From NCBI GenBank assembly GCA_001839685.1, contig MLAK01000717.1, positions 1 to 64,000 on the forward strand: DNA of 64,000 nucleotides. The letters are read 5' to 3'. The DNA is from Tritrichomonas foetus. Taxonomy: Eukaryota; Parabasalia; Tritrichomonadida; Tritrichomonadidae. Both the position numbers and the translations under genes were made by a program. Positions 3,339 to 64,000 of this stretch are shown piece after piece (positions within the stretch are counted from its first letter, which is position 1; every line of letters begins with the position of its first letter). Below the pieces are notes generated by a model. It worked only from the letters and a program-made list of their open reading frames with translations. It searched no databases and was not told the origin of the DNA.

Positions 3339-3953
3339 ATGAGAGCAGTCTCATCTTCATACCAGAAAATTCGAAGCGAAAAAATCGTCCTTATTGGCGC
3401 TGCTTCTAGTGGCAAGACTTCACTTGTCAATCGCTTTATCAATGATAAATTCAATGCCACATCTGAAGCCACAATTGGCGCAGCATTCATGAACAAAACA
3501 ATTAAAGTCGATGGAACAGATATTAAACTCGAAATTTGGGACACAGGTGGCTCAGAAAAGTACAGATCACTTGCCCCAATGTATTATCGCGATGCTCGAG
3601 CTGCTGTCGTTGTTTTCGATGTAACAAGCACGGCATCTTTCACAGAGGCACTCGAGTGGATCACCGAATTTCGTGAGAAGTCACAGACAGGCTCAATTGT
3701 AGTTGCTGCCGCAAATAAATGCGATTTGGAAAGCGAAAGAAAGGTCACATTTGAAGAGGCTCAAGATTTTGCCTTTTCAAACCAACTTGAATTGATCAAA
3801 GAAACATCTGCTTTAAGTGGCTACAATGTTACAGATTTGTTCCAGGAACTCGGAAAGCAGCTCCTTCTTCTTGCTCCACAGAGCAATGGCGATGATATTG
3901 AAATCGCAGACATTGCACAACCACCACAAGAAGCAAAGAAAGAATGCTGCTAA
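3339..3953 (+). CDS. Rab5-like small GTPase with altered catalytic loop
   Basis: A small GTPase of the Rab family, expected to recruit effectors to early endosomes in its GTP form. Motifs: P-loop GAASSGKT (20-27), switch I Thr in ATIGAAF (44-50), NKCD (126-129), ETSAL (155-159, in place of ETSAK) and a C-terminal pair of cysteines (203-204) for double prenylation. IGAAF and SLAPMYYR are typical of the Rab5/21/22 group. The striking change is in switch II, where the usual WDTAGQE reads WDTGGSE (67-73). The glutamine that positions the hydrolytic water is replaced by Ser72, and the Ala before the Gly by Gly70. Slow intrinsic hydrolysis is predicted. Length (204 aa) is normal for a Rab. Confidence 0.93.
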   Translation: MRAVSSSYQKIRSEKIVLIGAASSGKTSLVNRFINDKFNATSEATIGAAFMNKTIKVDGTDIKLEIWDTGGSEKYRSLAPMYYRDARAAVVVFDVTSTASFTEALEWITEFREKSQTGSIVVAAANKCDLESERKVTFEEAQDFAFSNQLELIKETSALSGYNVTDLFQELGKQLLLLAPQSNGDDIEIADIAQPPQEAKKECC

Positions 3954-20805: not shown

Positions 20806-22242
20806 ATGGCGGACGAAGATGATAAAATTCCATTTCCACGATTCGTTGGACTCGATAAATTTAATCAACACGCAAATTATAACAGTGAAATGTCACCAGG
20901 AAAATTATATTTAGAAAAAAACTATATTTTAGGCGAAAAAATTGGTGAAGGATCATTTGGTTGTGTTTACAAAGCTGTTCACAGATTAACAAATAGCGAA
21001 GTCTCAATTAAAATGATAGACAAATTTAATATCAATAGTTCACCAGATGCACGAAAGCATTTTGATAATGAAAAAACAATATTTAAAACTTTAAACCATC
21101 CACTTATCACACAATATTATGAAATGATTGATTGTGGAAATGAATACTGCATCGTGTCTGAACTCGCCAGTTATGGAAATCTTTTGAAATATGTGAACGA
21201 ACACCCTTCAAACATGAATGAAAAAGAAGCAAGACGCATATTTACACAGATAGTTCATGTTGTGAAGTATCTACATTTTGATAAAAAAATGGCGCATCGT
21301 GATTTGAAACTCGACAATGTTCTTCTTGATAAAGATAAAAACATAAAACTGATTGACTTTGGATTCGCAAAATTGTTTGAAGAGAATAAATTATTTTCAT
21401 CAATTTGTGGATCAATTGCTTATGTTGCACCTGAAGTGATAACTGGTAAACCTTATAATGAAGAAGCAGATGTTTGGAGTTTAGGTGTTATGCTTTATGC
21501 CATGGTAAATGGACAACTTCCTTTCAATGGGGATAGTCCGAAAGTTCAGCTGCAAAGAATTGCAAGTACTGAGCCATATTATCCATCACGAATGTCAAAT
21601 AGTTTAGTTGATTTGCTTCGGAGTATTTTCACAAAAGACTACAAAAAGAGAATTACCTTGGATGATATTTTGAAGCATCCATGGATAACAGCTGAAGTCT
21701 CTGATATTGATGGTATCATTTCTATTTACAATCAAGAAGTGAGTGTGATTGATGAAAGTGTCATTAAGCAATTACACTATAGAGGTATTGATACTCAAGG
21801 AATTGAAGATGATATCTTTTCATTGGCAGAAAATGAAAGAACCGTTGCTTATCGACTTATCCAAAGGGCCAAAATAAATCAAAAAATTCGAGGTACTCTC
21901 TTTAAGAAATCAATAGTGTCTCATTCTAAAACAATTCCTGCTTCTTTGGTTTTAAGAACCCAAGAGCAGTGTAAGAGAATGAGTGAAAATAGATGTACAT
22001 TCACGAATTTAAATCGAGAAACTGATTCAACATCAGAAAATAATCAGACAACTTCGAATACCACAATATCTGCTCGCTGTAAAAATATTTCTCGTAATCA
22101 AAATGTCATTCTTTCGTCCAATCTCGGAAAAGCAGCCAAACAAAGAATGTACAGTCATGTTAATATACTTAATCCCAAAGATACAGGAAAGAAAACTCAT
22201 CTTCAACCAGTGAATGTGAAACCAAAAATTTTAAGATTTTAA
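20806..22242 (+). CDS. CAMK-group (AMPK/SNF1/MARK-like) protein kinase
   Basis: A Ser/Thr kinase resembling AMPK-related kinases. The kinase domain spans residues 40-294: glycine loop GEGSFGCV (47-54), ATP-binding Lys69 in VSIK (usually VAIK), HRDLKLDN (164-171), DFG (184-186) and CGSIAYVAPEV (201-211). The CGS block is diagnostic of AMPK/MARK/SNF1 kinases. The residue equivalent to AMPK Thr172 appears to be Ser (FSSICGS, 197-203). After the domain, 'RGIDTQGIEDDIF' (about 325-338) suggests a small UBA-like regulatory helix set. A Lys/Ser/Asn-rich tail follows. The gene is convergent with an LKB1-like kinase; in other eukaryotes LKB1 phosphorylates exactly this T-loop position. A functional link is an inference. 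Confidence 0.9.
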   Translation: MADEDDKIPFPRFVGLDKFNQHANYNSEMSPGKLYLEKNYILGEKIGEGSFGCVYKAVHRLTNSEVSIKMIDKFNINSSPDARKHFDNEKTIFKTLNHPLITQYYEMIDCGNEYCIVSELASYGNLLKYVNEHPSNMNEKEARRIFTQIVHVVKYLHFDKKMAHRDLKLDNVLLDKDKNIKLIDFGFAKLFEENKLFSSICGSIAYVAPEVITGKPYNEEADVWSLGVMLYAMVNGQLPFNGDSPKVQLQRIASTEPYYPSRMSNSLVDLLRSIFTKDYKKRITLDDILKHPWITAEVSDIDGIISIYNQEVSVIDESVIKQLHYRGIDTQGIEDDIFSLAENERTVAYRLIQRAKINQKIRGTLFKKSIVSHSKTIPASLVLRTQEQCKRMSENRCTFTNLNRETDSTSENNQTTSNTTISARCKNISRNQNVILSSNLGKAAKQRMYSHVNILNPKDTGKKTHLQPVNVKPKILRF

Positions 22243-22636
22243 GAATGCTGATAATTTGAGTTCAATCCTCAAGATTATTGTGTGATATATTCGTTTTGTT
22301 TGATAAATCAATATCTTTCTAATTTAATAATCTTCCATAATTATATTTCTTCATTATTCTCGTGAATCTATTCCAGCTTCATCAGTCTAAACAGAAAAGA
22401 TAATGATAAAAGATTAATAAATAAAGGACATTCCCCTCGATGAATGAGTAAAAGAAAAAAAGCTATTATTTTGAAATAAGCGCACAGTTTTATTTTGAAA
22501 GAAAAAATAAATACTATAAATAACTTCCACAACAAATGTAAAATTTGTATATCCTGAGTTCTTTTCACGAAAGCAACACCAATTTTTATTTTGTACATAA
22601 AAATCACAAAAAATAATACAATTGAAGAAAAAAAAA
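22243..22636. other. Intergenic region between convergent kinase genes
   Basis: AT-rich 3' flanks of two facing genes. No RNA gene, repeat or convincing ORF. Confidence 0.5.
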
Positions 22637-23734
22637 TCAATCGAGGGACTTTGTTTTTCCTAGTTTTGAATAAGATGAATTCGCCTCGACCATTTCTGTT
22701 GCATAAGAAGGACAAGAAACAGAACGGAGTCCTGCAAACGAATAATTTTCTGGACAAACGATAGCCATAATTTTCATCACTTGTGTTGTTCCGCGAGGAG
22801 GTGGCTGAAAAGGCCTAAGTCTGAATGAAAGGGATGAGCTTTGAGCACCTTCGAAGAAAGGATGGTTTTTGATGTCATCAAGGGAAATTCTTTCGTCAGG
22901 ATTTTTGTGGAGCATTTTCAAAAGAAGGTCAATGAAATTGTCTGAATATTTTCGATTTTCAGGAATCACCAATGGTGTGTTATTTATCTTATTAACAATT
23001 TCATAAAGATTCTGGCCATAGTAAGGAAGTGACCCATAAGCTGCTTCATATAAAGAAACGCCCAAACTCCAAACATCACCTTTTGTGGGATCGATATCAA
23101 TATCACTAAAATCTTCCTCTTCGTCCTCCAAAAGCTCAGGTGCTTGATAGGCTGGAGTTCCTATGACTGTTTCAGCACTCTGGAAAGTGTGACCGATTCC
23201 AAAATCTGATAATTTTACTGACCCGTTTAAAAATAGCAGAATATTGGACGGTTTGATATCTCGATGAACAATTCCTTGCGAGTGAAGATAAGATAAGCCC
23301 TCGACGATCTGTTTGAAAATTCCAGCGAGAATATTTTCTTCGAATTTGATTCCCTTTTGAATCGCCTGTTGGAGGGAGCCACACTCAGCCCACTCCATGA
23401 AGAGATATGCCGTGTCTGTTGTCGATGCGTAAAGGACGTCATGTAACGCCACAATGTTGGGATGGTTTAATATTCTCATAATTCGAATTTCACGTTCAAG
23501 GCCTGCAGCACCTGGGCCATTGTGGCGGCGCTCGTGGACATGAACAGCTTTGGCGGCATAGTATTTACTGGTCGTATCGTCTTGCGAAAGGTATACTTTT
23601 GAGAATGCGCCTGACCCCAATTTGGTCAGCAACAAATATTGATTAACCATTTTTAATTTCAATTGTTTCTGTTCTTCGACAATGACGTGCTGAACAGGTA
23701 AGAACCTTGGACAAGTCGATCTGCGAACGTGCAT
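22637..23734 (-). CDS. LKB1/CaMKK-like Ser/Thr protein kinase
   Basis: A complete kinase of the CAMKK/LKB1 type. The domain runs about residues 33-294: GSGAFSKV (40-47), Lys62 in AAKAV, HRDIKPSN (157-164), DFG (177-179) and GTPAYQAPE (192-200). The YQAPE block, the following acidic insert and 'GQNLYEIVNKI' resemble LKB1's 'SPAFQPPE' and 'GDNIYKLFENI', and the region GLEREIRIMRILNHPNIVALHDVLY resembles LKB1's alpha-C segment. LKB1 and CaMKK activate AMPK-family kinases by T-loop phosphorylation. The 70-residue tail is Ser/Pro-rich. The 28-residue leader before the ATG at codon 29 (MVNQYLLLTKLG) is basic and may or may not be translated. STRAD and MO25 partners are not in this window. Confidence 0.88.
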   Translation of the reverse strand: MHVRRSTCPRFLPVQHVIVEEQKQLKLKMVNQYLLLTKLGSGAFSKVYLSQDDTTSKYYAAKAVHVHERRHNGPGAAGLEREIRIMRILNHPNIVALHDVLYASTTDTAYLFMEWAECGSLQQAIQKGIKFEENILAGIFKQIVEGLSYLHSQGIVHRDIKPSNILLFLNGSVKLSDFGIGHTFQSAETVIGTPAYQAPELLEDEEEDFSDIDIDPTKGDVWSLGVSLYEAAYGSLPYYGQNLYEIVNKINNTPLVIPENRKYSDNFIDLLLKMLHKNPDERISLDDIKNHPFFEGAQSSSLSFRLRPFQPPPRGTTQVMKIMAIVCPENYSFAGLRSVSCPSYATEMVEANSSYSKLGKTKSLD

Positions 23735-25157: not shown

Positions 25158-27146
25158 CTAGAATTTCCGATTAAATTGTTTTAATGCATCTTCTTGTTGT
25201 TTTAAAACTGTTTCTAAATTGTTCAGATCTGATTGTAAGTTCAATCTTAATGTAAATTTATTCATTACTTTCTTTTGCACCTTTGATTCTTCTTCTATCA
25301 TCTTTTCTATTGCAATGCTTTCACCTTTAGTCACGACAGCATCAGCATGAATAACTACTTTTTTGACATATTCAATCATTTTTCCTTCTGAATCACCACC
25401 AAGTTGTTGAATTTTAGCAACAAATGCTGCAACTGATGCCTTAATAATTTTAGCTGCTGAAATAACTTTGTACTCTGTATCACTTTCAGCTTTTGAAATT
25501 AAAATTTCTGCAACAATCAAAAGCAATTCAGCAGCCTCTGAAAGATCTTGTGCACATTTTATTAGTGCCTTTTCATTTTGTAAATGGCCACCACTTTCCA
25601 TCATTTTTTGTTTAGTAATTACTTGTGCTCTTTGTAAAATTAATGACGTCATTTCAAGAACAGGTGAAGCATTTGAAATAACAAATGCAGGAAGAGTTCC
25701 TTGTTCAGCGTTCAAATTCATTTCTTGTCTTTGTAAGCCATTATTAGACTCCTCTGCAAGATCATTCGTATTTTCATCAATAATATCGATACCTTCATCT
25801 TGTATTGGTTCTTCTATTGTTGATATTTGTGCACTGAATTTGGCAAGTCTTGCATTCATCTCATTAATTGCATTTGCAGTTGCTTGAAGTTCACGTGTTA
25901 CTTCATCAGATGCACTACTTGTATCTTCAATGGTATCAATAATTTCCTCTTCAATAACTGCAGACTTTTCTTCAAAGTTTTTCACTGCTGCACTAGCTAA
26001 ATTAATAGTTGATTCTATTTGAGGCCCAAATTGTGAAATGGCTTCATTAATATCTTGATCAAAATTCCCTTCACGAAGAAGCCGATTTCTTATTGCGACA
26101 TGAAGATTCGAAACAACTGAGATAAATGAAAATATTGATGTTTGAAGTTCACCTAATCTTTGATCTGTGCAAACTGAAATCATTTGACGTGAGAAGGAAA
26201 TAAATTTATTTGAATCATTATCTATTTTTTCGATTATTTCGATAATGACGTCACTATCTACAGAATACTCGGAAAAAACCTTTTTAGCCTCAGTTAGATT
26301 ATTTAAAATTTTTGTACTTTGACTCTGAATTGAAGAAAGAACATCATGGGGAGTTAAATTATCAGATATCTGTTGGTTAGTCATTTTTGGTTCAAATTTT
26401 TCAGGTATTTTATCAGCAGAATCTGGATCAGGGTTAATTATTAAAATGTCTGTCAATGTTGGAACAATTTTACTTAACCTCATAATAGATTCACCCATAT
26501 TACCAGAAATTTCGAGTAATTTTTTAACTGGAAATAAGGATTTGGTGAAATTGATTTTAGAAGAACAATCAATAAAATTATTGAAATGAAATTCAATTTG
26601 TATTAAAACGCCTGCAAAGTCGCTGGCTGTTTGACCAACAGCTTGAGATCTTACAGTTGCTACACTTTCATTGAATATTTTGAACGATGGAAGGAGTTTC
26701 TTTTCTAAAACTTCATTTCTGTTATTCCTATACATTTCTTCAACAAGAGAAATCAAAGCATGTGAAATAATGTCCGCCATAGAAAATAAAACATCACATA
26801 GTTTATCTTGCATTTGTTGTACAGATTGTAAAAAAGGAGTTGATGGTATTTCTGGGGATGGTAGTCTTTCAATCATATTAATAAATGAATCCAATTGTCG
26901 TGCAAGGTTTCTATTAAGTTGTCGAAGTTTAAAGTTTATTGAATCAGCTTGCTTATAAATTCGAAATGTCGTTGAATCAAATAATGAAATTCCATTCAGA
27001 ATTGTTGAAAATCCAGTGAGAAAGGTTTCTATTACATGGGAATTTCTTAGATTACTTATTGATAATCCATTTAATGCAAGGGCAGAAGCTTCAAAAGATA
27101 CAATATTATGTTTCATCAAAATACCCATTAATTTTTCTTCTTTCAT
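25158..27146 (-). CDS. Talin-like protein, C-terminal part with I/LWEQ domain
   Basis: A helical-bundle protein whose last about 180 residues look like a talin/HIP1R-type I/LWEQ (THATCH) actin-binding domain. The best block is 'KVISAAKIIKASVAAFVAKIQ' followed by EGKMIEYVKKVVIHADAVV, close in pattern to 'EVIAAAKxIAASTAQLVAA'. A terminal amphipathic helix (about 640-660) corresponds to the dimerisation helix of that domain. Residues 1-470 are four- or five-helix-bundle-like. A link between actin and membranes or adhesions would be expected. The ATG at 27146 is in the same frame as the upstream ORF (27159-30290), with one TAA and four further codons between them. The two are therefore probably one gene interrupted by a stop, a readthrough gene, or a recently split pair. 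Confidence 0.7.
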   Translation of the reverse strand: MKEEKLMGILMKHNIVSFEASALALNGLSISNLRNSHVIETFLTGFSTILNGISLFDSTTFRIYKQADSINFKLRQLNRNLARQLDSFINMIERLPSPEIPSTPFLQSVQQMQDKLCDVLFSMADIISHALISLVEEMYRNNRNEVLEKKLLPSFKIFNESVATVRSQAVGQTASDFAGVLIQIEFHFNNFIDCSSKINFTKSLFPVKKLLEISGNMGESIMRLSKIVPTLTDILIINPDPDSADKIPEKFEPKMTNQQISDNLTPHDVLSSIQSQSTKILNNLTEAKKVFSEYSVDSDVIIEIIEKIDNDSNKFISFSRQMISVCTDQRLGELQTSIFSFISVVSNLHVAIRNRLLREGNFDQDINEAISQFGPQIESTINLASAAVKNFEEKSAVIEEEIIDTIEDTSSASDEVTRELQATANAINEMNARLAKFSAQISTIEEPIQDEGIDIIDENTNDLAEESNNGLQRQEMNLNAEQGTLPAFVISNASPVLEMTSLILQRAQVITKQKMMESGGHLQNEKALIKCAQDLSEAAELLLIVAEILISKAESDTEYKVISAAKIIKASVAAFVAKIQQLGGDSEGKMIEYVKKVVIHADAVVTKGESIAIEKMIEEESKVQKKVMNKFTLRLNLQSDLNNLETVLKQQEDALKQFNRKF

Positions 27147-27161
27147 ATTTTTTACATTTTA
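27147..27161 (-). other. In-frame stop and 12-nt junction between talin-like ORFs
   Basis: Read on the minus strand: GAA TAA AAT GTA AAA AAT ATG. The TAA (27159-27161) and the ATG (27144-27146) are in one frame. No other stop separates the two ORFs. Confidence 0.95.
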
Positions 27162-30100
27162 TTCACGAAGAATTATATTTGCACACTCTCTAAAAATCTC
27201 CACTTTTTCATACATTTTATCAACAATGGAATCAATGTCATATTTATTTTTTTGAGTGAAATCAAATTCTATTGGATTAAGTTCGAGAAGTCTGCTGGAT
27301 AGAGTTTGAAGAATAGGTTGAACTATTTCTCCATTTACTCTTCTATGCAATAAATTCTTAATAAGAGGAGATAACAGAGTTTGAACATCTAATTTTTCAT
27401 TATAATCATTCAATCTGCTTATTACATCAAGTGCAATTAGTTTATAGATATCTTTCATTGCCTTAAATAAATATTTGGAACTTTTCAAACGATTTGGGTC
27501 ATGGGCAAAATGAATTATAACCTTCTTATACTTTTCATTATATAAATTCAGATATTCATCTTTTTTCACATTTCCATACCTAGACAATGATGTAATGAAA
27601 ACAATTGATGAAGAAATCTTTAATGAAACTTTGGTCATATGCTTTTCACCTTTTAGGATATCTTTGACAACTAAAAAAATTTCTTCATGTTGAGTTCTGA
27701 CAAGCTCTGAATACTTATCGAAAGTGTCTTCATTATCACCAAGCGAAGCAGATAAGTAACAAAAACTATCAAAAAACTTTTCTAAATCATCCGAATTTGT
27801 GTTTAGTTCCATTGTTGATTGTAAAAACAGTGAGGCGGCTTCACCAAAATCTCTTGTAGGATTTTTGATGGCTTGAAACCATTTTCTAGCTATCATTATT
27901 GCATTTGTAACATTGTCACTGCGGATCCAGCTTATGATAATATTAGCAAAAAATTTCAAAGAGGGTTTCAATGATATTGCAGTTTTCTCCATTTTTGTAA
28001 GTTCACGTAATTCTTCAGATATATTAATTTCATTGCATGGTTGTGGAAGTAAAGATATTGCTGTAAGCATATCAGCTAGAAGTTTGGGAATTGAGTTTGT
28101 ATATATTATTAGACTTTTTTCGTCATCTACCTCATTAGTTCCAGCAGAAATGGCACATGATAGTGGCCAAATAACTTCTAATGAGACTTTGGCTGTTGTA
28201 GGAAAATTCATTAAGGTTGTTGCATCTCTGATGTTATTTTGAATTATTGCACATAATATATTAATACCTGTGTATGGAATTGAAAAGAAAAATGCAAATA
28301 GTTTATTTGACAGTTGTAAATACCTTTGTGTTTCTGATATCATTGGAATTAATTGGTTGAGATAGGCTGTTATTGCTGCAACAAAATCAAATGACTCTTC
28401 AAATTTAAATAGTGCCGACATCTGCTTCATATGGACTTTGTAATCACAAAAAACAAATTTGATTATCTTACTATAAGCAAACATCAATGGATAGTACACC
28501 GAAGCTCCCTGTTCACCAATACATGAAACTATCGTATTTATACTTGAATTTATAATCGAAAAGTTTTCAAAAATTTTAATTATATCAGAAATATCAACTA
28601 AAATATAATGTGAAGTTGATTGGCAAAGAGAATGAATCGTTCTAGTTGCGTCCAATATATTTTTTGGTAAATCTAAATTCAATCCATGAAGATATATCAA
28701 AGAATTCCCCACAGTTTCTGCTCTTAACTGTATTTCTGAAGAAACTGTCAAAAGAAGTTGAGCATGCCATTTAGCATATTTAAAAGCAATTTCATTATTA
28801 ATTTCATATTCTGAATTTAATTCTCTTTGAACATTTTCGTTCGTGCAAGAAGAAATTGTTTTTTGTAAAACGTGCGGAAGGGAGCAAATTGAGTTAAATG
28901 ACCTTTGAAGTTCAGGGAAAAATAGAGCAGAGTGAATATCAAGAGATTTTATAGATGTTATTTGAGAAATGTGATAACTTAACTGGCCAAGTGCATTTTC
29001 ATTAAAAAGAGATAGATCACTGTTGTAAACTTGAAAAATTGTTGTGGCTGATTGAGAAACTTGTTCAAAATAATTATTTAAAATTTTTGCAATAACATTT
29101 GTGAGCTGATTTAAAATATCATAAGAAGTTTCGAAACCAGAAACAGTCATTGCATAAAATCTCATCACGGAAATAATTGCTATCACTTGAAGTTCACTTT
29201 CTTCATTTTTACATGTTTCTAGAAGTTCCGTAATTGTGCCACTAGAAGATATCGTATCTTTCCAATTGCAAAGAAAACTAGCATCTACAATTCTCTGTGA
29301 ACTAATTTTGTGAATTTCAATAGCTTTTTCCAATAAAGGATATACACTTTTTCCATTCATGTAAAGAATTGGAATTTGCGAGATAATATCCATCACAATT
29401 TTATCAGTGTGTTCTGATCTAAATTTGGAAATTAATTCAATTAAGACAATTGAGTGATTTGCTGTTTTAACAAAATCTTCTTTATTCTTTAAAATTGATT
29501 CAGTTTGTGATATAACAGTAAAAAGCGTAGGCGATTTTTCTACAATTTTATCCAAAATAAAAGAAATATTTGAATTGTTATGAAGGCGATTTGTTTGATT
29601 TTGTAAAGAATTGAACAATTCTTTGGATGTTGATTCTAAAATATCTATCCATTCTTTAAGATATTCATCTTGTGATGATTCTTGAATAGATTCATATGAT
29701 TGAACTACTGATAAATCAATTACGAGACTCTCAATTGTGCTAATTATGGATGCACATTCTTGTAATTCGTGAAGATTCTTAGGTGGACTTAATGTCTTTG
29801 ATAAACCTTGTTCAACAGTTGAAATTATGTTCACTATATTATCCAAAATTAATAATGAGTCACTAATTAATTTTTGTAATTCCGGAATATATGCTTGAAA
29901 AGTAGGTGCAGTTGAAGATGTTAACTGGGGTAGATACTCACTAAATTTCATAACTCTGATAACAACATCATTATATAAGGGTTGCAACTGGCATGATGGA
30001 TCAACCATTTTATCTTGTTCAATGATTGCTTTCTGAATGAGATTTGAAATTGCTGAAAATTTATTAAAGTTTTCCTTTAAAATTAGTTGTGGACCTCCTG

Positions 30101-30290
30101 CAATGAGACGTAATTTATCATGTATCGAATGTAAAATCGGTTTGATGTAAGATATCATTTTGAATGTTATTTGTAAATGATTCCCAAGAATGGATATCCA
30201 AATTGCAACACGATCATCTGGTACAATATCACTTGGTAATTTGGTAGAGAATTTTGCAAGAGATGCAGCGAAGTTTTGAAACTCACTCAT
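27159..30290 (-). CDS. Helical-bundle protein, likely N-terminal part of the talin-like gene
   Basis: A 1043-aa almost entirely alpha-helical protein without membrane segments, signal peptide or catalytic motifs. The helices are long and amphipathic and occur in bundles, like the rods of talin or vinculin-type proteins. I see no FERM or ANTH head domain at the N-terminus (MSEFQNFAASLAKF). The ORF ends ...LRE-TAA. After four in-frame codons an ATG opens the 662-aa ORF that carries the I/LWEQ domain, so the full reading frame would be about 1710 codons. Twelve nt is too short to hold a separate polyadenylation site and promoter. Candidates: sequencing or assembly error at the stop, a pseudogene, stop-codon readthrough, or a dicistronic transcript. 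Confidence 0.8.
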   Translation of the reverse strand: MSEFQNFAASLAKFSTKLPSDIVPDDRVAIWISILGNHLQITFKMISYIKPILHSIHDKLRLIAGGPQLILKENFNKFSAISNLIQKAIIEQDKMVDPSCQLQPLYNDVVIRVMKFSEYLPQLTSSTAPTFQAYIPELQKLISDSLLILDNIVNIISTVEQGLSKTLSPPKNLHELQECASIISTIESLVIDLSVVQSYESIQESSQDEYLKEWIDILESTSKELFNSLQNQTNRLHNNSNISFILDKIVEKSPTLFTVISQTESILKNKEDFVKTANHSIVLIELISKFRSEHTDKIVMDIISQIPILYMNGKSVYPLLEKAIEIHKISSQRIVDASFLCNWKDTISSSGTITELLETCKNEESELQVIAIISVMRFYAMTVSGFETSYDILNQLTNVIAKILNNYFEQVSQSATTIFQVYNSDLSLFNENALGQLSYHISQITSIKSLDIHSALFFPELQRSFNSICSLPHVLQKTISSCTNENVQRELNSEYEINNEIAFKYAKWHAQLLLTVSSEIQLRAETVGNSLIYLHGLNLDLPKNILDATRTIHSLCQSTSHYILVDISDIIKIFENFSIINSSINTIVSCIGEQGASVYYPLMFAYSKIIKFVFCDYKVHMKQMSALFKFEESFDFVAAITAYLNQLIPMISETQRYLQLSNKLFAFFFSIPYTGINILCAIIQNNIRDATTLMNFPTTAKVSLEVIWPLSCAISAGTNEVDDEKSLIIYTNSIPKLLADMLTAISLLPQPCNEINISEELRELTKMEKTAISLKPSLKFFANIIISWIRSDNVTNAIMIARKWFQAIKNPTRDFGEAASLFLQSTMELNTNSDDLEKFFDSFCYLSASLGDNEDTFDKYSELVRTQHEEIFLVVKDILKGEKHMTKVSLKISSSIVFITSLSRYGNVKKDEYLNLYNEKYKKVIIHFAHDPNRLKSSKYLFKAMKDIYKLIALDVISRLNDYNEKLDVQTLLSPLIKNLLHRRVNGEIVQPILQTLSSRLLELNPIEFDFTQKNKYDIDSIVDKMYEKVEIFRECANIILRE

Positions 30291-40506: not shown

Positions 40507-43416
40507 TTATATAAAGTCACCGAAAAATTCAATATTGGTTAGAATCAAATAATTATCACCATAATGATTAGGCCCAGTCTGTCTCAATCGGATCATCTGG
40601 AAATCTCCAGTTGAGGCAACTTGAAATGTCGCAACTCGACTTTTCCCGTTTAATTCATTATTATCGTCTCTTCTATCAATTTCGTACCATTGCCCAGTAT
40701 TACAACCTTCAACGACCCAATTTTTAAGGTGAGAATAACCTTGTCCGCATAAATAAGTCTTAATAGTATAATGTGTGATGCAAATCTGATGAACTCCAAA
40801 GTCAAACTGTATATAAGAGTTCGGTACATTTGCAGAAGTCCAACATTTATTCCATTCAAAGTTTATTATTTCATGTAGTGAATTCTCTCTATTTCTATCC
40901 GCAGAATTTCCAGTTATAGTAACTATACCTTTTTCGACTAAATTTCCTTTCACTTCATTTGTTAGATGTGCAAAAATGCCATCAAATGGTGCATATGCAT
41001 ATGGAAATTGTGCATTTTCAAGCAAGTTCTTGAAAGACATTTTATTTTTTGAAAGTACATTTGGTGCTTTCGATAGTTTTTTAGATCCTCCTAATATATT
41101 GTTGTTTGGATTTAATGACACATTGCTTGAAAAATTATTTGACAAACCACCATTTGGTGATGAATCTGTATTATTATTATTTTGCTGTGAAGGAGATATA
41201 TATTGAGAATGGAATAATGCGAATGCGGATTGTTTTTCTTGTTGTGATTGCTGTTGTTGTGGTTTCGGTGGTTGTGGAATATTATTATTGGCAACAGGAT
41301 GTTGTATATTTTCTTTCGAGAATCGTGTTGGAACTTTCGGTGGCATATTCACTGATTTTGGCAAATTAGGTGATGATGCAAATAATCTGCTATTTTCATT
41401 TCTTTTAGGACCATTTGGCGACGCTGCATGCTTTCCTGTTCTTGAAAGACGCGTTTTATTGGAAGGTTGGAGTGAAAGACGTGGCTTGTGAGAAGTTGGT
41501 TCTGGAATTTGCTGAACTACTGCAGGTGGCGGTGTTGTTAGACTCATTCGTTGCTGTGGTGGAATTGGTGCAGGAATTTGCTGAGGAGGTACAGGTTCTT
41601 TGAAGTTAAATTGATTTTCCTTTTTCAGATCATTAGTGGACACTTTTAGAGCAGGAAAAGCATCATCATTCTTTCCTTTATTTTTATCGTTGTCTACATC
41701 ATTTACATTATTAGTATTAGTTGCATTAGTATTATTATTGTTATTGTTGGTTGTATTAGAGTTGTTTGAATTATCCTTGGAGTCAGTTTCGTTTGTATTA
41801 TTTGTTTGGTTGGAATTGGGAATGGATATGTCAGTATTAGATTTAGAAAGTGTTTTTTGAGATCCATATGTTGGAAAAGGTGAAAGATCTTTTGGTTGTG
41901 ATTCTGGCTTAGGCATTGCAGTAATTGAAGGAAATACTTCAGTCACATTATTTTTATCATTTGTATTATTTTGGTTTAAGTTTGATTTTGGTCCAGTGAA
42001 AGATTGATTGCTTTCTGGATTATTCACAAGACTATTATTTGTATTATTAATAATATTGAGATTTGTAGTACTAATATTATTACTCTGGTTTGATGAATTT
42101 GAATTATTTGTATTGGTTAAAGGTGGATTATTCACACTAGAATTCCCACTTCCATTTAAATTGGGTGGAATCATTGTTGGTTTAATTGGATTATTCTGAC
42201 CCATTTTTGGAAAATTTGCAGGATTGGGTTCAATCATTGGCCGAATTGGTTGCTTTGTAGAAAATCTTCGATTTTGATTAATAGCAGCCCAGTTTGGTCT
42301 ATTATTGTTAGGATGATCAGCATTGATATTGAGTTTCACGTTTTCTCTTTCTTCTCCGATTCCACCTTTAAAATTCCTTTGAATTTGTGTCATATTTATG
42401 GTCAAGACTTCGACATTCCTTTTCAAATTTTCAACAATTCGATTTAGTGTTTTATTTGCATCAGAAAGTGATTCAATTTGATCTATTGTTTTAATTAAAG
42501 CTTTTGTCGCAAATGATGAAGATAGACAGTTTGTTTGATAGTTTCTCATCTGTATCGATTCTATATCTTTTAATGGTAAGAAAAACTCATTTTTCAAAAA
42601 TCTCAAAACAATTGATTCAAAGGTTGGTCTTTTTGAAGGTTCTTTGTCCCAACATTGTGAAATTAGTCTTTGCCAGCATTCTGGAATATTTCCGGTTAAA
42701 GGGGGTCTTTCCCCATTAAGAATTTTTGTTTTTGGATCTTTTTCATTTTCACCAAAAGGTAGATTTTTGGTAATTACGGCATAAGCAATCATTCCGTACG
42801 AAAAGACATCAACAGAGGAGGACAATTCACTTCCTCCTGTATCAATGGCTTGCGCCGAAAATAATGATGACGAAAAAAATTCTGGCGCGAAAAAGCTCAT
42901 GTCACGTGTTGAATATTTCCTTTTTTTAGGGGCGATTTTCCCCATTGAGTAATCAGAGATTACTGGTTCCCAGTTGTTAGTCAACAATATATTGCCGGGC
43001 GTTAAAGCTCCATGAATGAGTCGATTTTCATGAATAAAACGTAAGCCTTTAGCGACCCCAAAAAGTATCTTCATTCGTATAAAATCGGTCATCAATTCTG
43101 GTTTACTCAACAAAGTCAAGAGAGAGCCGTTATTTTGATATTCGTTTACGATTGACATTGGCCGTTTCTTGGCATGATCCGGCAACGAGTAGCCAAAAGG
43201 TCGTAGAATGGCCATGTGATAGAGCGAGGAGATGACGTTCACGTGAGATGTTATTTCAGAGTTATCGGATAAATTCGTTTTTATAAATTTAATCGCATAA
43301 TGGCGCTGTGTCGATTTTTCTTTGGCTAGGTAGACCTTCCCAACACTTCCAGTTCCGAGTTGACATACCTTTTCGAAATGCGATGGAGAAATCTGAACTG
43401 GAGATTTCTCAATCAT
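40507..43416 (-). CDS. TKL-type pseudokinase with Asn-rich linker and F5/8C-like domain
   Basis: Three parts. Residues 14-277 form a TKL-type kinase fold with glycine loop GTGSVGKV and Lys43 in AIKF. The catalytic loop reads HGALTPGN (135-142) instead of HRDLKPxN, so the catalytic Asp is Ala and the following Lys is Thr; DFG is DYS (155-157). It should not phosphorylate in the normal way. Residues about 340-800 are Asn/Pro/Ser/Gln-rich and disordered. Residues about 805-969 form a galactose-binding/F5/8 type C-like domain, with signatures LTNEVKGNLVEKGIV, NSYIQFDFGVHQI, 'HLKNWVVEGC' and 'IRLRQTGPNHYGDNYLILTNIEFFG', as in trichomonad TKL proteins and BTBD9-type proteins. The domain would bind carbohydrates or proteins. 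The ATG at 43416 is preceded by AAAAAGTTTGA on the minus strand. Confidence 0.9.
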   Translation of the reverse strand: MIEKSPVQISPSHFEKVCQLGTGSVGKVYLAKEKSTQRHYAIKFIKTNLSDNSEITSHVNVISSLYHMAILRPFGYSLPDHAKKRPMSIVNEYQNNGSLLTLLSKPELMTDFIRMKILFGVAKGLRFIHENRLIHGALTPGNILLTNNWEPVISDYSMGKIAPKKRKYSTRDMSFFAPEFFSSSLFSAQAIDTGGSELSSSVDVFSYGMIAYAVITKNLPFGENEKDPKTKILNGERPPLTGNIPECWQRLISQCWDKEPSKRPTFESIVLRFLKNEFFLPLKDIESIQMRNYQTNCLSSSFATKALIKTIDQIESLSDANKTLNRIVENLKRNVEVLTINMTQIQRNFKGGIGEERENVKLNINADHPNNNRPNWAAINQNRRFSTKQPIRPMIEPNPANFPKMGQNNPIKPTMIPPNLNGSGNSSVNNPPLTNTNNSNSSNQSNNISTTNLNIINNTNNSLVNNPESNQSFTGPKSNLNQNNTNDKNNVTEVFPSITAMPKPESQPKDLSPFPTYGSQKTLSKSNTDISIPNSNQTNNTNETDSKDNSNNSNTTNNNNNNTNATNTNNVNDVDNDKNKGKNDDAFPALKVSTNDLKKENQFNFKEPVPPQQIPAPIPPQQRMSLTTPPPAVVQQIPEPTSHKPRLSLQPSNKTRLSRTGKHAASPNGPKRNENSRLFASSPNLPKSVNMPPKVPTRFSKENIQHPVANNNIPQPPKPQQQQSQQEKQSAFALFHSQYISPSQQNNNNTDSSPNGGLSNNFSSNVSLNPNNNILGGSKKLSKAPNVLSKNKMSFKNLLENAQFPYAYAPFDGIFAHLTNEVKGNLVEKGIVTITGNSADRNRENSLHEIINFEWNKCWTSANVPNSYIQFDFGVHQICITHYTIKTYLCGQGYSHLKNWVVEGCNTGQWYEIDRRDDNNELNGKSRVATFQVASTGDFQMIRLRQTGPNHYGDNYLILTNIEFFGDFI

Positions 43417-58465: not shown

Positions 58466-61400
58466 ATGTCGTATTTACGGGAAGGAAGTAGCACACCGAC
58501 CCGTACATTCGGCAACAGAGCCGCTTTTACTCCCGATTTTGTCAAATCTTACACTTCAAAAGCGAAATCGCCATTTTCTAATTCGATTAAATCGCCGAAA
58601 GCCGAAAATTCGTCAAATAAAACATTAAGTCCTACAACAGGCCTCAAAATAAACGAAGGTTACAAAAGGTCAATAACCATTGCACAAAACAGTGCAAAAT
58701 TAAATTCCATAAGAAGGGATTTAACACAATTAAAGTCTGGTTTTTCAATTGAAACAGATATGTTTCGTTCTTTTTTGTCACAATCAAAGAACGAAATATT
58801 CAAAATGGTGCAAAAACAAAATCGGGAATTAAAGAAAAAATATATGACTGAAAATAGCAACGATTCTGACAGTTATCATTTTAGCAATAGTAACAATTAC
58901 AATACGAGTGTTAATAGCTTCAAAAATTCAAATAATTCAAACAATTCTGCCACGAAAATTGCAGCTCTTGAAAAACATATAAATGAACTTACTGAACAGC
59001 TGAAAACTGCTCGATCAAATGATTTAAGCCTTCAGGTCCAAAAGCTTGAAGAAGAATTGAAGGAGAAAGATATCTATATTGAAGAGATCGAACAGGATCA
59101 CCTTCAGGAGGTCGCTAATTTAAAACAACAAATTGCTGAACAAAATGATATCATTAGAGATTTCAAAAGCCAACGTTTCCACTTAATTCAACTTCAAGCC
59201 CAAATTGATGATAAAAATCGAACAATTGAAAGATTGAAAGATGACATTGCCAAAACCACTTCTGAATTGGACAGTCAAGTGCAAAGCAATGAAACAGCTG
59301 CTGATGATATTCAATATACAATGGATACAATTAACCAACTCAAAAATGATTTAATTAATGGTGAAGAACAAAATAAATCATTAAATATCGAATTAAGTAA
59401 AATCAAATATTTACTTGAAAGTGAACAGGAAAAGAATGAAGCTCTTTCTAACCAAATTACTGATGCCAATAGTCAAATTGCTCAATTAAAGACAATTTTA
59501 TCATCAAAAGATAAAGAAATCGAAAACGTGAATCAAAAGAATTTAGACATAATACATCAACTTGGCGAAAAAGAACAAATTATTGATGAACAAATGACAG
59601 AAATTTCTGTGTTAAATGCAGAAAAATCAATTGCTTCACCGAAAGAACAACTGTCGCCTCAACAATCAATGAATGTTCTGTCTACTTATTCAATGAATAT
59701 GAAAAATGTTCAAAAATATAAAATAGAAAATTTGTCATTGAAGTCTCAAATTGAAAAATTGAATGCGGAAAGCAAAGAACAACAAAACTTAATTTCAGCA
59801 CTTCGATTGAATTTACAACAAAGTGAAGAATCATTGAATCATATAAAAGATCAATTAATGAATAGTCAATCATCATTTGATCGGAAAGAAATGCGAATGC
59901 ATTCATTCAAAGAAGAAATTGTTCGTCTTCAAAGCGTAATTTCTCAAAAAGAAAAACTTATTTCAGAATTAATGAATTCTGATAATACTCGAAGTAAAGA
60001 AATAGAACGGTTACACATGGAACTTGAAATGTCTAAAAATAAACCAGTCGAACAAGCTCACATCGATGAACGACTTCATAATCAATTTAATGAAATTTCT
60101 CAAGAATTAAGTGAATCCAGGACTAAAATTAATGATTTGGATTTATTAAATAAGAAGTTAAATAGTACAATTAAAGAATTAAAGCAAGAAAATGAATCTC
60201 AGAACCACAAAATATCTCATTTTGATCGAGAAATCGCAAGATTGAATCAAGAAAATTTGACACTTCGATCAGCTAATGAAAACACAAGTATGCAGGCTGA
60301 ATCAACAATTAAAAGATTGCAAAGAGAATTAAGTTCACTTCAAGAACAATTTGAAAGCACTGTTTTCGAAAACAAGAGTTTTTCTGAAAAATATAATGAC
60401 TTAATGAAGAATATTCAAACCAACACAGAAAAAGCCGATAAACTTTTCATTCAAAATAATGAATTAAAGAAGGAAAATACTGCTTTGTTCCAACAAATTA
60501 ATACTGAACTTCGTCCAATGAAAGATGAAAATAAAAGATTGAAAACAATGATCGAAAAATTTAGAAATACCGAAAAATCCATCACAGATGATAACACAAG
60601 AATGTTCACTGAAAATGCAATCCTTAAAAAGACTTCTGCTAAAGAAATTTCGATTTTAAAGGAAACAATTTCCAATAAAGATGAACAAATTTCGAGTTAC
60701 ACTCAAGAAATCGAAAAAATGAAAAATGAATCAGAAAAATGGAGTAAACTTATTTCAAAATTATGTAAGATTTATAAAACAGATAAAATTGAAAATATGA
60801 TTGATTTATCAAAACAAACAAATGAAATAATTGATATAATGAAGAAAGATGCAGTTGAAAACAAGGCTTTAATCTCTAAACTCCAAAATGACATTAAAAA
60901 TCTTCATGGGGAAATTTCTGAATGTCGAATGCAAATGTTAACACAATCTCAAACAATTGAATCAAGGGTGAAAGATTTAAACATTTCTAAAGACTCAATT
61001 AGCATTCTTCAAACAAAATTAACGGAAACAGAAATAGCATTGGCTGCGAAAACTCGTGATTGGGAAGACCTCGAAGATTCGTTTGAAAGAAGTCATCAAG
61101 AATTTGATACTCTTCATGATATAATTGAATTCACAACTGTTGAATCCCTTGGAAATGCAATTCAACAAATTCAAGGACAGAATCAAGAACTTGACGATGA
61201 GTTAAATGGAATTAGAGTTGATCTTGAAAAAGCGAATAATGAAAAGAAGAAATTGAAATTGCAAATCAATGATCTAACTAAGAAGAATGCAATTCAATCG
61301 ACTCAAATTGATAGATTAACACAAAAATTAGAAGAAGCTAGATCAATGGTAACTGAAGAGAGTTCATCTTCTCATACAGCAACACTTTCTTTAAGAAAGC

Positions 61401-64000
61401 TAATTGATGAAAAAGATAATGAAATCGATTTAATGAAGTATGAATTTGAAAGATTCCATTCTATTATTTCGTATGCTCGTGTTGAAGATTTGTTTAGCAC
61501 TGTATCTGCACTTTTAGATTCAAAGAATCAAGAAATAGAAAAACTCAATTTTGCAAATTCACAGGCTCAAACCAAATATAATCAAAAGATTAGTGAGATG
61601 ACAAATAATATAGAGAAATTACAGAACCAAATCAAAGGATTATTGAAAGTCAAAGATGAAAAATCATTTTATACAAACAAAGTCAAATTATTAGAAACTG
61701 AAATCTCGGCAGCTAAAAATGGACAGCAGAATGCGGAAAACAATCTCGAAATTGCTCAACAGAAAATTGAAAAAATTGTTTTGGCAATGGCAACATTCAC
61801 TAAATGTGAAAAACCAGAAGATATTGAAGTTGTTCTTGACGTTTTAAGATCCAAACTTGCTTTAAGTAAAGAAAAAATCAGAGAAGCCCAAGCTCAATAT
61901 GCCGTTTTGGAAGATGAAAATGCCAAACTTAAATCGGAAATAGACACAATTAGAAGCACTTCATTTGAACAACAGAATACAAATGAAAGAAAGGAAATTG
62001 AAATGAAGATGAAAGATAATGAAAATTTGGTTTTCTTTGGTGTTAACTCAATCGATCAACTCCAACAGAAATATAGCGATCTGCTTAAATCGATAGATAA
62101 GTATCAACTTCAAACTAAGACTCAAGAAATAGAAATTCAAAAATTGAATGATCAAATGAAACTTAAAGTATCTGCAATTGATAATATCACAAATGAACGA
62201 GACTCCCTTTCACAGATGAATCAACAATTAGTACGTAAATTTAATGAAGTTGAAGAATTGTATCTTGAATTGAAAGAGAAAAATATTACCCTCACTAAAA
62301 ATTATCAAAAGGCATCTGATGACATTAAAGAATTAAAGAATCAATATCAAGGAGTGAATGAGGAAAAACATAATGCCGTGTCCAGAATTCAAACAATAAC
62401 TGTTGAAAAATCTTCAATGTCAAGTCAAATTCGAGATCTGACAAAAATTAATCAACGCTTAACATTAGAAATAAATGATTTGAATTCAGAAATTCAAAAA
62501 TTAAAGACTCAGTGTGGTTCGTTAGAAACTGAAAACACTAATTCCAATCAAGTTAATAATAATTTATCAATTAAGAATTCTACATTAAATGATCAATTTG
62601 ATAAAATTAAAGCAGAAAATGAACAATTAACCAAATCCCTTGCAAGTCAAAATGAAATAAAGAAAGAATTAGCTCAAACTATAACCGAACTCAAAGTCAA
62701 AATTGAAGCGTTATCTAATGAAAAAGAAACAACATCTTCTCATAATTCTACTTTGAAATCGAAATTTGGCATGTATAGTGAGAAAATTGAAGAAACTCAA
62801 GAAAAGCTATCAAAAGCGACTGAAGAGCTTGACGAAGCTAAAATTGAAATTAAACAATTAAGGATTAAGTTTGAATCACAAGCACAACAAATTTCAACAC
62901 TTATTGTTCAAAATAAGAAATATTATGACGATAGCCAAACAATGGCAACAAAATATGAACAAGCTCAAAGTGACAATCGACGATTATTATCTAAAGCAAC
63001 AAGTTTGGAACTTCAAGTCAAAAGATTATCGAATGAAAATGATGATTTGAATAAATCTGCTTATTCTGAAATCACCGAGTTGGATGACCTTCGAGTCGAA
63101 AACCAATCACTTAAATTAGAAAAAGAATCTTTAGAAAATCACATTGATTTTTTGAGATCTGAAGGTGAGAAAATTTCTAAACAATTCGATTTCATTGTAA
63201 TTGAAAATGACACACTTAAAACCGATCTTCGACTTCTGAAAAATAAAGTAAAAACACTCGAAAATGATACCAAAGCAATTCGACAACAAAATATTGCTTT
63301 TTCAAACCAAAATAACCAATTGATGAGTGAAAATAAATCCCTTACAGCCGATAACAGACTCTTACTTAGTAAGAATTCAACTTACAATGTTCAACAAAAG
63401 AGTATCACTGATGCAAATGAAGCGCTTACCAAACAAAATGAAGAATTAAAATCTCAAATTAGTGCTTTGAAAATCGAAAATAATACTCAAATATCACAGC
63501 TTAAATCAGTGTCTGCTCAATTAGAAGCTGTTCAACAAAAATATGCACAATTAACTGTGTTATTTGAAAGTGCAGATTCAAAGGCTAAACAATCAACTTC
63601 AGAACTTCAAGTAGCAAGAACAAGTATAAGAACCCTTACTTCCAATAATAAAGCTCTTCAAAAGCGAAATGAAACTCTTGTTGCAGAAAATGATAAACTT
63701 TCAACATCAAACACTTCTTTGAAGATGACAGCCGCAGAAACAACATCAAAAAACACAGAATTAACCCAAAAAGTTGATCAAATGACAGATTTAATTAAAA
63801 AATCAACTGAAAGAATTAAATCTTTACAAGAAGTTCAACAAGAAAACCAAGGCAAAATGGTTCAACTGAAGAAACGTTTAAGATTATCAAACAAACAAGT
63901 AAGTGAATTAGAAAGTGCAAAGAGAAAGTTAGTTATTCAAGCGAATGAACTTGATGTTCTTAAACAAAACCTTGCTGAATACGACGATGCATTACCAGCT
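58466..64000 (+). CDS. Giant coiled-coil protein, 3' end beyond the window
   Basis: An open frame of 1845 codons with no stop to the right edge, so the gene is partial. It starts MSYLREGSSTPTRTFGNR, a basic Ser/Thr/Pro-rich head of about 60 residues with SP sites, followed by a short helical part. An Asn/Ser-rich linker (about 134-160) comes next, and then uninterrupted heptad coiled coil with Leu, Glu, Lys, Gln and Asn for the remaining about 1680 residues. I spot-checked the frame at several points and at the end, where codon boundaries agree. No motor, kinase or membrane segment is seen in the visible part. The pattern is that of trichomonad cytoskeletal or Golgi-tether proteins, often labelled 'viral A-type inclusion protein' by automatic annotation, which should not be taken literally. 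Confidence 0.85.
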   Translation, partial: MSYLREGSSTPTRTFGNRAAFTPDFVKSYTSKAKSPFSNSIKSPKAENSSNKTLSPTTGLKINEGYKRSITIAQNSAKLNSIRRDLTQLKSGFSIETDMFRSFLSQSKNEIFKMVQKQNRELKKKYMTENSNDSDSYHFSNSNNYNTSVNSFKNSNNSNNSATKIAALEKHINELTEQLKTARSNDLSLQVQKLEEELKEKDIYIEEIEQDHLQEVANLKQQIAEQNDIIRDFKSQRFHLIQLQAQIDDKNRTIERLKDDIAKTTSELDSQVQSNETAADDIQYTMDTINQLKNDLINGEEQNKSLNIELSKIKYLLESEQEKNEALSNQITDANSQIAQLKTILSSKDKEIENVNQKNLDIIHQLGEKEQIIDEQMTEISVLNAEKSIASPKEQLSPQQSMNVLSTYSMNMKNVQKYKIENLSLKSQIEKLNAESKEQQNLISALRLNLQQSEESLNHIKDQLMNSQSSFDRKEMRMHSFKEEIVRLQSVISQKEKLISELMNSDNTRSKEIERLHMELEMSKNKPVEQAHIDERLHNQFNEISQELSESRTKINDLDLLNKKLNSTIKELKQENESQNHKISHFDREIARLNQENLTLRSANENTSMQAESTIKRLQRELSSLQEQFESTVFENKSFSEKYNDLMKNIQTNTEKADKLFIQNNELKKENTALFQQINTELRPMKDENKRLKTMIEKFRNTEKSITDDNTRMFTENAILKKTSAKEISILKETISNKDEQISSYTQEIEKMKNESEKWSKLISKLCKIYKTDKIENMIDLSKQTNEIIDIMKKDAVENKALISKLQNDIKNLHGEISECRMQMLTQSQTIESRVKDLNISKDSISILQTKLTETEIALAAKTRDWEDLEDSFERSHQEFDTLHDIIEFTTVESLGNAIQQIQGQNQELDDELNGIRVDLEKANNEKKKLKLQINDLTKKNAIQSTQIDRLTQKLEEARSMVTEESSSSHTATLSLRKLIDEKDNEIDLMKYEFERFHSIISYARVEDLFSTVSALLDSKNQEIEKLNFANSQAQTKYNQKISEMTNNIEKLQNQIKGLLKVKDEKSFYTNKVKLLETEISAAKNGQQNAENNLEIAQQKIEKIVLAMATFTKCEKPEDIEVVLDVLRSKLALSKEKIREAQAQYAVLEDENAKLKSEIDTIRSTSFEQQNTNERKEIEMKMKDNENLVFFGVNSIDQLQQKYSDLLKSIDKYQLQTKTQEIEIQKLNDQMKLKVSAIDNITNERDSLSQMNQQLVRKFNEVEELYLELKEKNITLTKNYQKASDDIKELKNQYQGVNEEKHNAVSRIQTITVEKSSMSSQIRDLTKINQRLTLEINDLNSEIQKLKTQCGSLETENTNSNQVNNNLSIKNSTLNDQFDKIKAENEQLTKSLASQNEIKKELAQTITELKVKIEALSNEKETTSSHNSTLKSKFGMYSEKIEETQEKLSKATEELDEAKIEIKQLRIKFESQAQQISTLIVQNKKYYDDSQTMATKYEQAQSDNRRLLSKATSLELQVKRLSNENDDLNKSAYSEITELDDLRVENQSLKLEKESLENHIDFLRSEGEKISKQFDFIVIENDTLKTDLRLLKNKVKTLENDTKAIRQQNIAFSNQNNQLMSENKSLTADNRLLLSKNSTYNVQQKSITDANEALTKQNEELKSQISALKIENNTQISQLKSVSAQLEAVQQKYAQLTVLFESADSKAKQSTSELQVARTSIRTLTSNNKALQKRNETLVAENDKLSTSNTSLKMTAAETTSKNTELTQKVDQMTDLIKKSTERIKSLQEVQQENQGKMVQLKKRLRLSNKQVSELESAKRKLVIQANELDVLKQNLAEYDDALPA

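Follow-up and report, generated by a model that had tools for sequence, protein, structure and literature searches.

Tritrichomonas foetus is a parasite of cattle. We have analyzed a stretch of 64,000 nt of its genome (assembly GCA_001839685.1, contig MLAK01000717.1, positions 1 to 64,000; the window in what follows), in which an odd pair of long open reading frames, ORF1 and ORF2, can now be read as the two parts of one interrupted gene. On comparative evidence the two frames are the halves of a single ancestral gene of about 1710 codons that has acquired a new nonsense codon. This gene encodes a headless actin-linker paralogue of the I/LWEQ (THATCH) type and is probably a recent loss-of-function allele or has lately become a pseudogene; both the recency of the stop and the loss of the full-length product are what we infer from the comparisons described below.

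Two open reading frames, one ancestral gene

The first-pass annotation of this DNA had described a 1043-aa and a 662-aa frame that share one reading frame and are separated only by a TAA and four codons, and the coordinates bear this description out (Table 1). The start codon of ORF2 at 27144-27146 is placed 12 nt past the TAA in the frame of ORF1. At the local base composition, the 666 codons that stay open after the stop would be expected with a chance probability of about 4e-25. ORF2 contains zero further stops in its 662 codons, and no other stop or frameshift is found in the about 1700 codons of the gene. None of the 26 gaps counted in the window is shorter than these 12 nt, and the remaining 25 measure 77-1515 nt, in a count confined to the 27 closed ATG ORFs of at least 150 aa. 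That 12 nt are too short for a gene boundary had been the original argument for a single gene; it is not needed any longer, although the local spacing agrees with it.

Table 1. Positions of the interrupted gene, its parts and neighbouring genes in the window
Feature	Position	Strand	Remarks
ORF1, N-terminal half, all-helical	27159..30290	-	1043 codons + TAA; colinear with residues 1-1038 of the C200 paralogue protein
In-frame TAA stop	27159..27161	-	slot filled by a sense residue in 23/23 aligned homologues
Four codons from the stop to the next ATG, reading NVKN	27147..27158	-	coding sequence in homologues
ORF2, C-terminal half, ending in the I/LWEQ (THATCH) module	25158..27146	-	662 codons + TAG
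THATCH/talin-R13-like region	25293..25928	-	ORF2 residues about 407-618
Kinase genes and Ras-family gene, listed jointly	20806-23734, 40507-43416, 3381-3863		scan of neighbouring ORFs

When ORF1 and ORF2 were searched separately against the genome, both returned the same top two other loci, C200 and C570, where the matches to the two halves lie in order, on one strand and without internal stops. The open frames at these loci comprise 1688 (C200) and 1675 codons (C570), and the proteins, TRFO_19262 of 1676 aa at C200 and a 1651-aa protein at C570, run uninterrupted across both halves. Weak matches of the ORF2 search were also seen at C255, which was left unaligned, and at C368, which entered the BLAST comparison only and there gave no match to ORF1 or ORF2 at the cut-off. 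The junction is ungapped when the window ORFs are aligned as separate fragments with both paralogues. Across all 23 homologues the slot of the stop is exactly one residue wide (alanine in 16, serine in four, and cysteine, leucine and valine in one each), and in some of the aligned sequences a length difference of one residue occurs a few columns beyond it. These 23 sequences are the 22 proteins listed by a search for which the C-terminal region of the C200 protein served as the query, C200 itself included, plus the C570 protein; they are not independent, as several are close relatives and Histomonas contributes both P0006 and P0010. Single proteins of 1629-1725 aa account for 19 of the 22 listed proteins, the other three being shorter models (944, 1408 and 1448 aa); the search spanned sizes of about 922-2933 aa only, a range outside which half-length C-terminal relatives would fall. 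The ATG of ORF2 is not conserved among the aligned homologues.

The Histomonas meleagridis protein P0023 (GPJ56_008446; 1629 aa) spans both halves as a single protein. Among 24 proteins it is the top match to ORF1 (553 bits, the next reaching 283) as well as to ORF2 (384 bits, the next 334), and in separate trees of each half it groups with the interrupted gene, with a support of 1.0 in both. The half-trees were built from 20 homologues and the interrupted gene; P0006, P0010 and P0016, which are shorter models, were left out of them and of the conserved-column counts below, and P0006 and P0010 also out of alignments A2 and A3. An alignment of orthologues from other trichomonads had been proposed as a check on the junction, and the Histomonas orthologue turns out to be one uninterrupted protein. 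Since it is one protein, the interruption is taken to have arisen on the Tritrichomonas side. Further searches for relatives with ORF1 alone and with the two-row alignment A1 returned only the window's own protein; both searches are insensitive, the A1 search even missing the Histomonas protein present in its own query, so that their silence means little. P0006 and P0010 are the nearest Histomonas relatives of the C200 protein and are truncated in different ways, to 944 and 1408 aa. Where they overlap they largely agree by eye, and the shortening looks like an artefact of the gene models or of the assembly.

Because the paralogues and the orthologue are single frames or single proteins across the junction, with one residue in the slot of the stop, the pair represents one gene and not two. 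The earlier proposal of a stop inside a single gene of about 1710 codons is thus upheld. Two separate genes are out, as the relatives are unbroken through the junction and none of the other 25 gaps of the window is below 77 nt, and a dicistronic transcript has little in its favour, given that all 23 aligned homologues code for protein across the junction. The database protein for ORF1 (P0001) has 999 aa and begins at the second in-frame methionine, 44 residues into the ORF. In both paralogues residue 1 aligns to the longer start of ORF1, which speaks for that start as the correct one.

The neighbourhood of the gene was scanned as well. Nine neighbouring ORFs include three protein kinase genes, and one Ras-family gene was also found. 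From 58466 to 64000 the window holds a coiled-coil-like ORF of at least 1845 aa with an A-rich coding strand, which runs off the window end. tRNA and Rfam scans of the window gave no matches.

Origin of the in-frame stop

The explanation that we regard as probable is that a recent nonsense mutation in the sequenced T. foetus would have created a UAA where the last helix of ORF1 ends. Translation would be expected to end at this codon and to yield at most a 1043-aa protein without the actin-binding end, while the second half, ORF2, would not be expected to be made in quantity. The copy would then be either a null allele specific to this strain or a pseudogene of recent age, and T. foetus would still have TRFO_19262 (C200) and the C570 copy as intact paralogues.

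Compared with the Histomonas orthologue, the branch of the interrupted gene is longer by a ratio of 1.17 in the N-terminal half (0.778 versus 0.664) and of 1.21 in the C-terminal half (0.809 versus 0.668), and hence ORF2 is not accelerated on its own. The columns shared by 90% or more of 19 other homologues number 32 in the N-terminal and 88 in the C-terminal half; the interrupted gene keeps 20 and 66 of them, the Histomonas orthologue 23 and 71. Without translation, ORF2 would be expected (95%) to have gained a further stop by the time neutral divergence reached 3-4%. The openness of ORF2 and the even rates would therefore speak for a recent event, but they are equally expected for a recent loss, a maintained split and a consensus error. 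As for a pseudogene, the disabling mutation is absent from the intact relatives, all 23 of which have a sense codon there; no relaxation of constraint is seen, as would be the case if the event were recent, and equally with a split gene or with an error. Against a recent loss it can thus be held that both halves are otherwise open and evenly evolving, just as a maintained split or a sequencing error would appear, and that the stop sits at a helix boundary, where two half-proteins could fold independently.

Single nonsense codons of this kind can be placed in the context of the whole assembly. Stops within the domain were seen in 1/135 kinase, 2/150 cyclase and 2/150 Ras matches, rates that were taken from the best-scoring matches only and are therefore a biased, low estimate; both Ras cases look like short introns and were not counted as nonsense. 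The kinase C405 and the cyclase C1012 carry single nonsense codons in clear homology, neither of them intron-like by eye. An intron-like end is found downstream of the stop in C1012, but the domain match crosses it without excess length. In the cyclase match of C842, which is a longer one, there are four stops. The assembly contains at least 150 loci with an adenylyl/guanylyl cyclase domain (PF00211). Among the 150 cyclase matches listed, 30 have an open frame under 1300 aa, about 1600 being usual, and 19 of these 30 were sampled, with the stretch of one, L036, cut by the contig end. In 8/19 the homology extends beyond a stop or a frame change, and in 11/19 it does not; in the eight, 2/5 stops lie in possible intron spans, and frame changes were counted without an intron check. 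The transmembrane cyclases of T. vaginalis include pseudogenes with a nonsense codon (Cui et al. 2010, PMC2914791). In-domain stops are rare in the sampled matches and not to be expected for any given gene, but for a trichomonad genome it is ordinary that a duplicated family has one copy with a lone nonsense codon.

An error in the consensus or the assembly, in which case the strain would have a sense codon and an intact gene, is unlikely in our view. For T. foetus strain K, the published draft was assembled from Illumina reads and its gaps were filled with Illumina and 454 reads (PMC5399258), a procedure that leaves room for such an error. The present assembly is presumably of strain K. The locus is moreover known from one sequence, and all 23 aligned relatives have sense at the site. 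A lone substitution in a single-copy region is, on the other hand, an unusual Illumina consensus error, and the region does have one copy: no second copy of the 601-bp junction region, either as a duplicate or as an allelic contig, is found in the 63.7 Mb and 1064 contigs of the assembly. The lack of any other stop or frameshift along the gene argues in the same direction, as do the comparable in-frame stops of T. vaginalis, which were confirmed by PCR (PMC2914791).

A functional split, in which the 1043-aa half works alone and the 662-aa THATCH half is perhaps made by reinitiation or from a transcript of its own, seems to us rather unlikely. The position of the stop would suit such a split, since it lies at the end of a predicted helix (ORF1 residues 1019-1042) and a new helix starts from ORF2 residue 2. 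Both halves are open, ORF2 has no relaxed rate and its ATG follows shortly after the stop. In addition, the AATAAA formed at the stop could serve as a poly(A) signal. In T. vaginalis UAAA is described as a poly(A) signal that cooperates with the UAA stop (PMC6413133), and AAUAAA is reported in about 31% of the examined T. foetus transcripts (PMC12428144). However, if polyadenylation took place at the stop, ORF2 would have no transcript, the ATG of ORF2 lacks conservation, and every other gap in the window is wider, by the count given above. No split orthologue was seen either, in searches that are weak in this respect, with proteins under about 922 aa unlisted and a known orthologue missed.

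Translational readthrough of the UAA, which would give some full-length protein, is improbable. The shared frame, the continuous homology and the absence of decay downstream are what it would predict. Yet the stop is not conserved: it is absent in the Histomonas orthologue, the one orthologue available, and in the two paralogues, and the aligned homologues have sense throughout (23/23), a distribution that speaks against programmed readthrough. UAA with a following A is not generally known as a leaky context, which may hold for trichomonads too. Among the causes offered by the first-pass annotation, a recent nonsense codon or pseudogene gives the best fit, a dicistron loses favour and readthrough is left without positive evidence.

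It would be more speculative still to assume a maintained switch in T. foetus, with the UAA at the boundary between the helical and the actin-binding part tuning the ratio of tethered and untethered product. If this were true, termination would yield a 1043-aa linker lacking the actin-binding end, and leaky termination or reinitiation would add a little full-length protein or a separate THATCH protein.

That the stop lies inside a short intron and is spliced out is scarcely credible; both the motifs and the ungapped alignment speak against a short (type B) intron at this position. T. foetus does appear to have short introns of 25 and 30 nt, an in-frame GT..AG span of 27 nt covers the stop, and two longer spans over it (159 and 168 nt) start with GTAT. 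The short introns of Trichomonas measure 23-28 nt; they have a GT motif at the 5' end, and their branch site, of the CTAA type, is joined directly to the AG at the 3' end (PMC12316389). This branch/3' motif is present in 0/12 of the in-frame GT..AG spans of 20-220 nt over the stop, and no CTAA is found within 100 nt of it. The 27-nt span starts with GTGA and is A-rich, unlike the two intron-like T. foetus sequences or the published Trichomonas motifs (PMC12316389). The two longer spans would remove conserved coding sequence, and with homologues ungapped at the stop (23/23) a compensating deletion would be needed. Searches with a provisional intron motif were uninformative: allowing up to 2 mismatches, the window has 1 match versus 2.9 by chance, not at the junction, and in the genome there were 0 matches to the combined pattern and 17 versus 11 in the reversed control for the 12-base motif alone. 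The apparent stops in the Ras-family genes L030 (C977:6300-7600) and L029 (C566:9200-10800) resemble introns of 30 and 25 nt. With trichomonad-type motifs recognized by eye in these two Ras genes, T. foetus probably has very short introns.

The headless I/LWEQ family and known systems

The recent broken copy that we favour belongs to a conserved parabasalid family of headless I/LWEQ (THATCH) proteins with a typical length of about 1670 aa. The family consists of parabasalid proteins of ~1650-1700 aa that have a long helical N-terminal part, no FERM head that could be found, and a C-terminal THATCH module. This module is expected to bind F-actin, and actin binding by the intact relatives is presumed on that ground. 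By sequence comparison the interrupted gene is a third, divergent member among at least three related T. foetus genes: homology to family members is colinear over the full 1650-1700 aa, each half having been tested separately, and, lacking one uninterrupted reading frame, the locus is filed as an interrupted member. The family is not new as such, since members are already labelled I/LWEQ in public records. Full-text searches, in a collection short of most subscription journals, brought up no publication about a talin of trichomonads or of T. foetus.

The I/LWEQ label that had been given to the 662-aa frame is right, and it is carried by the paralogue alignment and the predicted structure and not by Pfam alone. 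PF01608 was not reported on ORF2 by hmmscan (E<=1), nor for this locus in the genome search with PF01608. Precomputed PF01608 is likewise absent from 5/22 family members, namely P0010, P0014, P0018, P0020 and the orthologue P0023. Paralogues in which PF01608 is recognized can be aligned to ORF2 over almost its whole length, and the structure predicted for ORF2 (mean pLDDT 80.9) gives matches to talin R13 and to the THATCH core of HIP1R. For ORF1 an AlphaFold2 model (mean pLDDT 85.4, pTM 0.72) is helical, in agreement with the original description; the epithet talin-like, in contrast, holds only in the sense of an N-terminal part of the I/LWEQ family. No Pfam domain lies above the cut-off on ORF1, and a fold search of it against PDB structures gave vinculin as the best match with an E value of 0.05, which is not usable. 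A sequence search against the PDB returned no match for ORF2 and one chance-level match (E 0.32) for ORF1. That no head domain is visible holds at the level of Pfam, where no FERM family is reported at E<=1 in ORF1 or ORF2. ANTH is found neither in Pfam at E<=1 nor among the listed matches of the ORF1 fold search, two approaches that a divergent ANTH domain could escape.

Closest to the interrupted gene are TRFO_19262 and the parabasalid I/LWEQ proteins, among them GPJ56_008446 and the Trichomonas vaginalis 'I/LWEQ domain family' protein. They are colinear with both halves and equal in the spacing at the junction, and they share the helical N-terminal part and, in most cases, the C-terminal PF01608/THATCH. 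The interrupted copy differs from its paralogues by the internal TAA and by an identity of 20-35%, depending on the half, and is 35-40% identical to the Histomonas orthologue. The C-terminal THATCH/R13 fold that the model predicts for ORF2 is common to the talins of animals and amoebozoans, whereas their FERM head was not found here and the N-terminal 1043 aa have no convincing structural match to talin. As for Sla2/HIP1R, the ANTH domain of these proteins is not reported here by Pfam (E<=1), which a divergent one could escape. With respect to the lesion itself, the transmembrane cyclase pseudogenes of T. vaginalis are a similar case, since they too belong to a duplicated family and are open apart from an in-frame stop (PMC2914791). 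The cyclases form a large, recently duplicated family, while the gene described here belongs to a small and old one in which two intact paralogues are seen.
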